Shown: in pieces, positions 18,165 through 47,200 of the stretch
Layout of the letters: each line of letters starts with the position of its first letter
Numbering within the stretch: the stretch's first letter is position 1
Assembly (NCBI GenBank): GCA_033065855.1
Contig: JAVXUO010002601.1
Coordinates: forward strand, 558,001 to 622,000
Source: Escallonia rubra
Taxonomy: Eukaryota > Streptophyta > Magnoliopsida > Escalloniales > Escalloniaceae
DNA: 64,000 nt
Direction: 5' to 3'
Made by a program: the position numbers and the translations under genes
Notes under the pieces: generated by a model
What the model was told of the DNA's origin: nothing
What the model saw: the letters and a program-made list of their open reading frames with translations, nothing else
Database searches by the model: none

Positions 18165-18181
18165 GCTGGAGTAGCTCAGTT

Positions 18182-18214
<33 letters not shown>

Positions 18215-18238
18215 AAGGTTCAAGCCCTTCCTCTAGCG
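18165..18238 (+). tRNA. tRNA-Asn (anticodon GTT)
   Basis: 74-nt cloverleaf. The acceptor stem GCTGGAG pairs with CTCTAGC with one G-U pair. The D arm contains AGCTCAGTTGGTTAGAGC, the anticodon loop is CTGTTAA, and the T arm is GAAGG/CCTTC with loop TTCAAGC. Discriminator base is G. The sequence is of nuclear plant tRNA-Asn type, not the chloroplast trnN sequence. The genome happens to continue with CCA directly after the discriminator. The standard loop is TTCGA-type, so the TTCAAGC loop is a small variation. No intron. Confidence 0.95.
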
Positions 18239-18497
18239 CCATCCGCCTAACTTTTTTTTTAACCACATCACAACCATTAATACTCTTTCAAAGCCATTTT
18301 TGGTTCTTCAAGACTCTGACTGTCGTCCTTGCTGCAATCAGTTTAGTTTCTATCTCAAAGGAAAAATAGGAAAACACCAAAACGTCACAATAGATAAGGT
18401 GAATGAGAGCCACACACAATCATAAAGACCTAATGTAGACATATCCAATTTCATCACAACTATCTTAGGCAGATTAGCCTTTCATGAACATCCAAAG

Positions 18498-21093: not shown

Positions 21094-22690
21094 CTAGAAG
21101 TCACTAGAGAGAGGAGCATGTTCATGCTGCATGAAGACATTGGAGTAGATGAGCCCAGCTAAGCCACCACCAATCAAGGGTCCAACCCAGTAGATCCAGA
21201 CATCATGGAAGTCCCCACTGGCCACTGCTGGCCCAAAGGAGCGGGCTGGGTTCATCGATCCACCGGAGAACGGGCCGGCAGCCACAATGTTGGCACCAAC
21301 AATCAACCCAATGGCCAATGGGGCAATGGTTCCCAGTGAGCCCTTCTTGGGGTCAGCTGCTGTGGCATAGACTGTGTAGACCAAAGCAAAAGTGATGATG
21401 ATCTCCATCACAACTCCTTCAACGGCTCCAACGCCACTGCCCACACTGTGGATTGGAATAGTCTGAAACAAAAGAAAAATGGATTGATACTTTTAATCAA
21501 TCTCCTCATAGTAACGACATGAAGTCTACTCCCAATTAGGAGAAGGGAAAAGGGTGGCCTATGCAATCAATAAGAGTAGAATTCCCCCTCAAATCAGACA
21601 AACAAAGAAGGGAATCCCGTTGAGTTCTTACGAATTAGAATATTTTTTCGTCTAAACGACCTTCATTGATTTATTCAGAACACCGGCTCGATACATACTT
21701 TTCAAAGTTGGAAGGAAGGAGGAATCGATAATTTTAGTACTCGTTTGAAAGTATCATCCTATGTACAATCATTTCAGACGAAAATTTGTATACACGGTTT
21801 TTCTGAACCAATAGTTAAGATAAGTCACAATTCTTGTCACTATTTAAATTTTTTTGATACATCTCAAAAAGAAACGTGACACCAAAACTATGGAACGGGG
21901 GGAATATAAAATTTTTTTTGCCAATTTTTTGGTTGCATTCTTGCCAAACGCGACACTACAACTGCTATTAATACTCCAGAGGCATAATTTTCTCACTAAA
22001 TGCATGCGGTTGCACTTTGAAACTGGCATACTTCACATCGTGGTATTCTGAAATTCATGAACGTACGATATTGATGCATGACGTACAACATTAGAATTTT
22101 GTCGTTAATCTCTCGTCAAATCTTACCTATACACTAAAAGTAAAAAATAAATGAACTTTAGTTAATGTTGTATAAACCTTAGCGGGTTCAAACTTACCAA
22201 GCCACCTGTGACAACTTTAAGTAGGTAGCATGCAACAATGGCGCCTACAAGTTGGGCAACCCAGTAAAGGATGCCGGTAAGCACGGTGATCTGGCCACCA
22301 AGAGCTAGTCCAAAGGTAACCGCCGGGTTGACGTGCCCGCCGGGTTGACGTGCCCACCGGAGATGTTTGCTGCGATGGCGACCGCAACAAAGAGAGCAAA
22401 TCCGTGGCAAATGGCAACAGCCACAAGCCCGGACGGATCAAGCGCAGCATCTGATGTCAACTTATCTGCTCCAAAAAAAGCATGATCGTAAATACACTAC
22501 TTGCATGGATTGAAAAACATCGTATAACAGAGGATTAAAATGCCTGTGGAATCGAGTATTAACTGTACGCTATGACGGAACCAACTCCGGCAAAGACGAA
22601 GATGAGGGTGGAGATGAATTCAGCTAGATAGGCCTTTAAAGACCCGCAACTGAAGGAATCATCGAAGCGTCCAAAGGCAATTGCAGGCAT
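21094..22690 (-). CDS. Tonoplast aquaporin TIP2-type, frameshifted by a 17-bp duplication
   Basis: Tonoplast intrinsic protein of the TIP2 (delta-TIP) group, a vacuolar water/ammonia channel. Exons on the minus strand: 22564-22690, 22198-22465, 21094-21462. The ATG at 22690 starts [14 protein letters not shown]; the C-terminus is [10 protein letters not shown]. Six hydrophobic segments and the second NPA motif ([14 protein letters not shown]) are present. Within exon 2 the 17-bp unit CGCCGGGTTGACGTGCC occurs twice in direct tandem (22321-22337 and 22338-22354), exactly over the first NPA motif ([11 protein letters not shown]). This shifts the frame and brings a stop after about 95 residues. 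Ignoring one copy, exons 1 and 2 total 378 nt and the protein would be the usual 248 residues. The rest shows no decay, so the break is either very recent or an assembly error. Confidence 0.9.
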
Positions 22691-44296: not shown

Positions 44297-47200
44297 ATGT
44301 TGGAGAGAGTGCTCTCCTTACGCCGGGGAACAACCTCCCCCGACGACGGTGACGACGACGGTGCCGGCGGCGGCGACGAGTCTAAGACAAGAAAGCACGC
44401 ATCTTTCGCGATAAGGGCCACGAACTACATGACCCGAACCGGTTACCTCTGGCCCTGTCTGATCCTCGCTCTCGTACTCCTCGTAATCTCCTCCGTCATT
44501 ATTCACACTCGCGATTTGGTCTGCGTCTCGTCCGTGTCGTCCTTCGATCCCGCCTCGCGCCTCCGCTTCTTCGGGTTCGACGGCCTCGATTCGGACTTCG
44601 GATCCCTAGGCGTCCCCTGGTGTAAGTTCTGCTACTGTTTACTCCCGCTCGTTCTATCGGATTTTCTGTCTTTAACTCGTATATTGTCCTGGATGAAATT
44701 AGTATAGGGTAAAAGAAATGCGTAATGTCAATGTTTACGTGTACTAAATTTATTTGGGGAATCCGCAAAACGTCAAAGGGGAAGGTGCAATGAAGAGGAG
44801 TAATTCGTTTGTGTAGTTTAGTGTTTGTTACTTTGTTTGCTCAGATCTGATAGGAGTGATGCTGAATGTGTAAACGGAGTTGCTGCTAGTTTAGGCACTT
44901 GTTTGGTTGATAAGAAATGGAAGTGGAAGGAAATGATGTGAAGTTCAGGATATGTCGAGATAGTCTGGAAACTCTTAATCGTGGAAGATATAACATTCCT
45001 TTCTGTTTAGTTTATACAACGATGCTTGGAGTTTAACTAACTCGTGGAATAATATTAGGTCAGGAGGTGCTGGACGAACTTTATGAGTTCTTTTTTTTTA
45101 TTTGATGGAGGATTATCAGTGTCTCGCAGTGTTTGGTGTTCCTTTGAACTTCAATTGTGATACGAATCGCTAAACGTGTACAAATTTGTTCAAACCAAAA
45201 ACAAGTATATTTGGCTATATGTGGAAGTGGCACTCGTTTTATAAAACTAATCGTCTTATACTGGCAGCAAGTAGTGTTGTTTAAGTTAATCCAAAAACTG
45301 CACCTAATTTCATGCTGGTTCTTGTGCTAGCAGATTTTTTTGATGGGCTCCTCAGGGGCCTTTAAAGGCTAGTAAGATACACTGAAGTTGTTTAGTATGT
45401 TCCATACATCAAGCGATTACATTCCTTTGAAAGATCCTCGTGATTTTTTTCAAAGAGAGTTTGGTAATTGATTTCAAGAGTTTCACTTATATCATTTAGA
45501 TCATGCTGTTCAATCTACAAGCATATTGATTCCTGGCTTTGTATGCCTTTGGGGTTTCATTATACGAGATTCTGATTTTTAGTTTTATGTTGTATAATGC
45601 GCCATCTCCCGATGTAGTATGTGGAAAACAGTTTAAACTATGGCCCCATAAAGCTTTCTTGTTGATACGCTTTTACTTTTTCAAATATGTTCCTGTAAGT
45701 TTTCTGGTGGTTCCATTTCTGGACATTCTCAAATTTATTGGTTCCTGTAGGATCTTAATCAGGGAACTATTTTTACGATTTGTTAAGTTGAATCACCACT
45801 TTGTAGAGTTGAGTTTAACTCTAGAACAATGAAGTTTTTACAGTCTATCCCCGCTTAATTGTTATCCTTGTCAAAAGGCAGATCGAAACATGGGAAAACC
45901 GTTGAATGGACATCCAAGGATTTACTCAAAGGTCTTGAAGAGTTTGTACCAATATATGAAACACGACCGATAAAGAACAACATGTATGGGATGGGTTTTG
46001 ACCACAGTTTTGGGCTTTGGTTTATGGCACGGTGGCTGAAGCCAGATCTGATGATTGAGAGTGGCGCTTTCAAGGGGCATTCTACTTGGGTTTTAAGGCA
46101 GGCAATGCCTTACACACGAATTCTCTCAATTACGCCCCGCCATCCTGAGAAATACTTGAAGAAGGGCCCTGCTTACGTTGATCAGAATTGCACATATTTT
46201 GCTGGAAAGGACTTTGTGGATTTTGGGAGTGTTGATTGGGGTAGTGTGATGAAGAAACATGGTGTTACAGATCTCAGTAGGGTACTGGTCTTTTTTGACG
46301 ACCACCAAAATGAATTGAAAAGGTAATCATAGTCGGGAAATTTCTTCCTCTCTTCATTCACTATGGACGACAATGTCGAAGAAGCCTGAGTTCATGAGTA
46401 TACAACTACTTTTCGGCACCCTTGTTTGCCCTTTTGCCGCACTCCAATATATTTAATTTTTTTCGTTTATTCTCTAATTGCATTCTTTTATGGGTAGATT
46501 GAAGCAGGCACTAAGGGCTGGCTTCAAGCATCTTGTGTTTGAGGACAATTATGATACTGGAACTGGAGACCATTATTCCTTGAGGCAAATATGTGATCAA
46601 TCTTATATAAGAGGTGTGTATCTTCTACTTCAGATTTTAGAAAAGTCGAGGCCATTTTTTGGCAAATATAACTATGAAGTATCTCGCTTGGCCTACGTAA
46701 GCTTGTCATTGATTGTATATGTTGACATGTTAGCTACCAAGCCATCTATTAGAAGTTTGCAATGAGTCACACTCTAAAAGAACTTTTTTATCATGGCTTC
46801 CTAGAGACTTCGATTCAAGAGAGAAACAAAAAGGCATCTTCTAAGGTTTTCTATCATCTTATTCTCCGCTTGCTAATTTCCATTTCATGTGTGGTGGAAA
46901 ATATTTCATTAAAGTACAAGATTTGCATCAAGTATTTTTAGCTTAATTTCCATTTCATGTGTGGTGGAAAATATTTCATTAAAGTACAAGATTTGCATCA
47001 AGTATTTTTAGCTCAAGGAAGCATTTGCTTCCGTTGTGCATGAAATTAGTGGTTAAGCTTTATGTCACTGTAGCTCTGAAATATGCTCCAAATCTGACTC
47101 TTTCTAACATCTAAACTTTCAGGGCTGCCATATTGGCTAGCTCTAAGGTTTTAGAAACCTCAGAACTGTTATAATTATGAGCTACATAAATTTGGGTGGT

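Follow-up and report, generated by a model that had tools for sequence, protein, structure and literature searches.

An exact 17-bp tandem duplication breaks the reading frame of an otherwise intact, predicted TIP2-type aquaporin gene in an Escallonia rubra assembly

This study revealed that a predicted TIP2-type aquaporin gene of Escallonia rubra carries an exact 17-bp tandem duplication in its second exon, directly after the first NPA motif. The duplication breaks the frame, the rest of the gene is intact, and the assembly yielded no other copy of the gene. About half of our confidence goes to the reading that the duplication is a real and recent null mutation, probably one allele of a heterozygous plant. 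The duplicated unit, CGCCGGGTTGACGTGCC, lies at positions 22321-22337 and again at 22338-22354 of the window (the whole stretch of 64,000 nucleotides analysed), head-to-tail and with zero spacer. Since the run of exact period 17 has the extent given in Table 1, three registers are possible for the unit. TRF reported a period of 17 with a score of 75 at this site, and across the entire 566-Mb assembly the exact 17-mer is matched twice, both times at the duplication. None of 100 dinucleotide shuffles of the window contained two matches to the 17-mer, even with up to three mismatches allowed. The 17-mer positions, TRF and the shuffle control together confirm the exact, spacerless copy described in an earlier note on this DNA.

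Table 1. Features of the predicted TIP2-type gene and of the duplicated stretch (positions in the window; a slash marks a splice junction)
Feature	Position	Strand	Remarks
Exact 17-bp tandem duplication, 2.12 copies	22320..22355	-	Period-17 run; frame-breaking; in exon 2
CCGCCGG, one edge of the duplicated stretch	22320..22326		Letters as read; putative role in slippage or microhomology
CCACCGG, other edge of the duplicated stretch	22354..22360		Letters as read; putative role in slippage or microhomology
Exon 1, 127 nt	22564..22690	-	ATG at 22690; donor ACA/GTTAAT
Exon 2, 268 nt including the duplication	22198..22465	-	Acceptor GAGCAG/AT; donor TTG/GTAAGT
Exon 3, 369 nt	21094..21462	-	Second NPA; intact up to the TAG stop

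With regard to the gene model, three exons with GT-AG junctions were found on the minus strand, and a spliced alignment to a TIP2 template independently gave the same exons, with a frameshift at the duplication as the single event. Exons 1 and 2 together measure 395 nt as they stand, which is 17 more than the 378 nt correctly calculated earlier for a single unit. The protein read as is ends after 95 residues, in agreement with the earlier estimate of about 95, and there is no single open frame for six membrane helices. Contrary to what had been claimed, the first NPA itself was not destroyed: the letters of SGGHVNPA are kept and the frame is lost immediately after them, so that the loss concerns everything downstream of the NPA. 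The statement that no other damage is seen was borne out, as the ATG, the GT-AG sites, the coding pieces on both sides, the second NPA and the stop codon are all intact. Within intron 2, positions 21582-21727 are a dispersed repeat, perhaps a small transposon, with matches at eleven further genomic sites (80-100% identity, lengths of 30-143 bp). A tRNA-Asn(GTT) gene was also found in the window, at 18165-18241 on the plus strand.

The premature stop is located 107 nt upstream of the end of exon 2. Nonsense-mediated decay follows a 50-55 nt rule, and with the stop at this distance from the last exon junction the mRNA should be degraded. A gene that remains functional because the duplication is circumvented, via splicing or frameshifting for instance, is very improbable. 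Nothing direct speaks for such a bypass, and skipping of exon 2 would also break the frame, as the 127-nt exon 1 would be joined to a phase-0 exon. Intron gain, with the copy being spliced out, was rejected on size and frame, 17 nt being far below the size of a plant intron.

Several comparisons bear on the assignment to the TIP2 group. The aquaporin family profile (PF00230, MIP) matched exon 3 with an E-value of 5.9e-40, the tail of exon 2 with 2.5e-15 and exon 1 with 1.5e-5 (25.3 bits, against a cut-off of 25). The best PDB match of exon 3 was Arabidopsis TIP2;1 (AtTIP2;1, 5i32; E 9.9e-64), followed by an aquaporin-4 (E 7.4e-26). The extended selectivity filter is present (His63, His131, Ile185, Gly194 and Arg200, at positions given for AtTIP2;1 in an excerpt of PMC4814140), as are the two NPA asparagines. 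In a tree of 12 TIP rows, the gene pairs with AtTIP2;1 with a support of 81/89, below the mark of 95/80 taken as strong. As predicted from its sequence, the gene is a TIP2-type aquaporin, and the best PDB match and the matching filter residues uphold the identity proposed earlier.

No clear decay is observed behind the lesion. The gene departs at 1 of the 57 columns which are invariant in the other 11 TIP rows; when each of those rows was left out in turn (56 to 68 columns per row, with the twin of a doubled row omitted), five rows showed no departure and the others 2, 2, 4, 5, 12 and 12. Among the 189 columns alike in AtTIP2;1 and in C1554 and C1555, which carry the only other TIP2-type gene found, the gene differs at 16, including one gap. 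A three-way count gave private changes at 15 of 188 columns for the window gene, 17 of 190 for AtTIP2;1 and 30 of 203 for the C1554 paralogue. By part, the private changes amount to 3/62 before the lesion, 5/31 just after it and 7/95 in exon 3, against 8/67, 3/29 and 6/94 in AtTIP2;1. The middle piece is therefore slightly more changed than in the relatives (5/31 versus 3/29 and 4/30), on small numbers. Differences to C1554 fall mostly on third codon positions (50/30/152), and dN to this paralogue is 0.142 before the lesion, 0.208 just after it and 0.197 in exon 3, with dS saturated. Faster evolution behind the lesion was considered and rejected: dN is somewhat higher there, but the private changes show no general excess. 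Without selection, 0.55, 1.4 or 3.9 amino-acid changes per Myr would be expected at rates assumed to be 1e-9, 2.5e-9 and 7e-9 per site per year, and thus a first change in about 0.3-2 Myr, depending on the rate. The absence of decay caps the age of the lesion, very roughly, at a million years. The lesion had been called very young; the lack of decay agrees with this, but under these rates it is a weak bound on age and no proof of a recent private mutation.

A PF00230 search of the plant's own genome (566 Mb) gave 87 exon-wise matches, from which 33 other aquaporin loci were modelled (L008 and L019-L050; 30 genes when three doubled pairs are counted once), with two matches left aside, a second one on C1926 and a weak one on C1698. 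Only one of the 33, L041 (G000:C2451:177500-183300), shows frame lesions. This PIP1-like locus has a frameshift, an in-frame stop and an altered first NPA and is, in contrast to the window gene, a decayed pseudogene. As the other 32 are free of frame lesions, coding errors are not rampant in this assembly, with the limitation that small lesions may escape notice in weak models: the ends are rough in L024, L025, L040, L045 and L048, the NIP-type models have no N-terminus, L049 is truncated where its locus ends and L008 gives a poor fit to its template. Four closely similar PIP-type genes were found on G000:C1386 (L033, L034, L035 and L036) and a fifth on C1051 (L038).

The TIP2-type gene on C1554/C1555, assembled twice, is without lesions, as are eight more TIP-type loci, which represent seven distinct genes (one assembled twice) and which we take to be TIP1, TIP3, TIP4 and TIP5. 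The earlier note had spoken of a loss in a major vacuolar channel and had called for a search for another intact TIP2. The search was successful as far as this paralogue is concerned and gave no second copy of the window gene itself, and the weight of the loss is softened by the intact second TIP2-type gene and the eight TIP-type loci. In Arabidopsis roots, TIP2;2 and TIP2;3 overlap, and in leaves TIP2;1 and TIP2;2 may cover for the loss of TIP1, as the authors suggest in an excerpt of PMC2784467; on these excerpted statements, cover among TIPs is plausible. These genes and the failure to find an intact copy of the window gene in the assembly would suit a fixed natural loss, in which the species or a large lineage has lost its TIP2;1-type gene and other TIPs have taken over. 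Nevertheless, we regard such a loss as unlikely. It finds no other decay to accompany it, with a single departure at the invariant columns and no excess of private changes; the paralogue is old, its dS being saturated, so it is no fresh spare copy; and the family's one clear pseudogene has more scars. Equally unlikely is the variant in which the only TIP2;1-type gene of the species became fixed for a null allele very recently and was caught before further decay.

Three aquaporin pairs, differing by 0.6-4.2%, were found on contigs with consecutive numbers, close to the ends that face each other. These are the TIP2-type pair C1554/C1555 (L019/L020; 96.4% identity over 5.7 kb, coding dS 0.032), a TIP-type pair on C2738/C2739 (L025/L026; 95.8% identity, coding dS 0.055) and a PIP pair on C996/C997 (L028/L029; 99.4% identity). 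Tubulin matches with equal scores on C2628/C2629 have the same look. Such contig-end pairs are likely two haplotypes assembled twice, which would inflate gene counts, and could also be young duplicates; on the strength of these pairs, the plant is probably heterozygous. A search for a second copy of the TIP2 gene region, with the best candidates scored, gave the window locus as the only highly identical, full-length match; the remaining matches were paralogous exons and pieces of the dispersed intron repeat. Likewise, no second copy of a WD40 gene 4 kb away was found in the plant's own genome, its relatives showing 66-73% identity. The idea that the assembly holds a second haplotype or a spare copy was therefore rejected, as the gene region, the 17-mer and the neighbouring gene gave none among the best candidates scored. 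With no second copy of either gene, the locus looks collapsed; the plant may be heterozygous here too.

The main rival to a real duplication is an assembly or polishing artefact, in which the plant has one unit and the consensus wrote two, for example by merging haplotypes or read overlaps at a GC-rich stretch. We consider this a serious possibility, with somewhat more than a third of our confidence. The gene is otherwise pristine and is the only TIP2;1-type gene found, apparent haplotypic duplicates occur near contig ends in this assembly, and the duplication coincides with a local GC peak (0.77 over 30 bp). Moreover, erroneous short tandem duplications in genes are known from other assemblies: an excerpt of PMC5632298 describes a bird gene in which 22 bp of spurious tandem repeat, next to a gap at one exon, were corrected by long reads, as were other erroneous tandem duplications. 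The published cases whose location is given there adjoin gaps, whereas the window has no N among its 64,000 bases and the site lies about 580 kb into a 964-kb contig. Nor is there any N in the loci fetched, which total 272,556 bases when overlapping loci are counted each time. The absence of N is a weak argument, because contigs may have been split at their gaps, and no N is left where a gap has been filled. Two further counts argue against an artefact: in the three doubly assembled pairs, none of 6 indels of at least 10 bp was an exact neighbour copy by a simple test, and no exact tandem copy occurs in the modelled exons of 32 other aquaporin loci (24,112 bases).

A scan for exact tandem copies with periods of 10-150 bp and a complexity filter found two in the window, the 17-bp copy and one of 70 bp. 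The latter, at 46874-47013, is a second exact two-copy duplication, with copies 100% identical. In the 32 other aquaporin loci (190,560 bases), four exact tandem copies were found, with units of 10, 10, 18 and 24 bp. First-order Markov sequences with the make-up of the window gave no copy in 18 of 20 trials and one in the other two, under a first version of the filter which overlooked the 70-bp copy. These counts indicate that exact tandem copies are a natural class here, outside exons; a copy in a conserved exon is the expected outcome of either a young mutation or an error.

The reading as a real, recent null allele is supported by the intact remaining coding parts and the lack of signs of relaxed evolution, and also by the 32 lesion-free sister loci, the natural occurrence of such copies, their high share among new rice insertions and the probable heterozygosity of the plant. 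It is weakened because an assembly slip would give the same picture in a sole gene of its type that is otherwise pristine, and because no second haplotype of the locus was found. The options named earlier (functional loss, heterozygous allele or assembly error) proved to be the right set. If the duplication is real, it would have originated within the GC-rich codons of the first NPA loop, in a gene for a tonoplast aquaporin of the TIP2;1 type, either when nearby nicks were repaired or through slipped-strand pairing of the imperfect edge repeats CCGGTGG/CCGGCGG. The exact match run is 19 for the 17-bp unit and then continues at 6 of 7 bases, the two edges in Table 1 being identical to this extent, which suits slipped-strand pairing or microhomology repair. 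The insertion of 17 nt would then shift the frame to leave roughly membrane helices 1 and 2 together with some of loop B, the early stop would lead to degradation of the mRNA, and the other haplotype would have collapsed out of the assembly, leaving one allele of a heterozygous plant. A transposon footprint was rejected, since there is no insert and no inverted repeat of at least 8 bases in 22240-22440; to our knowledge, 17 bp is none of the usual excision footprints.

Real or not, the lesion is of an ordinary kind. If real, it would be a natural null allele of a vacuolar channel permeable to water and ammonia, a permeability reported for AtTIP2;1 in an excerpt of its structure paper (PMC4814140), and would be useful for asking how far TIP isoforms cover one another; if fixed, it would be a natural knock-out of an ammonia-permeable tonoplast channel. 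If it is not real, it serves as a warning that annotation of this assembly will overlook the gene or describe it wrongly.

Compared with known systems, the window gene is closest to Arabidopsis TIP2;1 (delta-TIP; PDB 5i32), with 81.9% identity over 248 positions when the pieces of the gene are read apart. The two proteins share all five extended-filter residues and the two NPA asparagines; what sets the window gene apart is its frame-breaking 17-bp duplication, immediately following the first NPA. The erroneous tandem duplications of assemblies, as excerpted from PMC5632298, are alike in being short genic copies which spoil a predicted protein, and differ in that the located cases adjoin gaps, whereas no N is present in the window. 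In rice, no less than half of the new insertions longer than 10 bp were tandem duplications, according to earlier work told in an excerpt of PMC7971508. There, repair of neighbouring nicks, which needs no homology, is proposed and slippage is held unlikely, the criterion for repair being that the overlap metric d equals the length of the indel; the original work on patch repair is, as told there, that of Vaughn and Bennetzen 2014 and Schiml 2016. As far as these excerpts go, the present duplication resembles plant patch-repair duplications in its size above 10 bp, its exact head-to-tail copy and the lack of foreign DNA. In contrast, it lies in a coding exon, and its exact edge overlap of 2 bases (6/7 in all) permits slippage.
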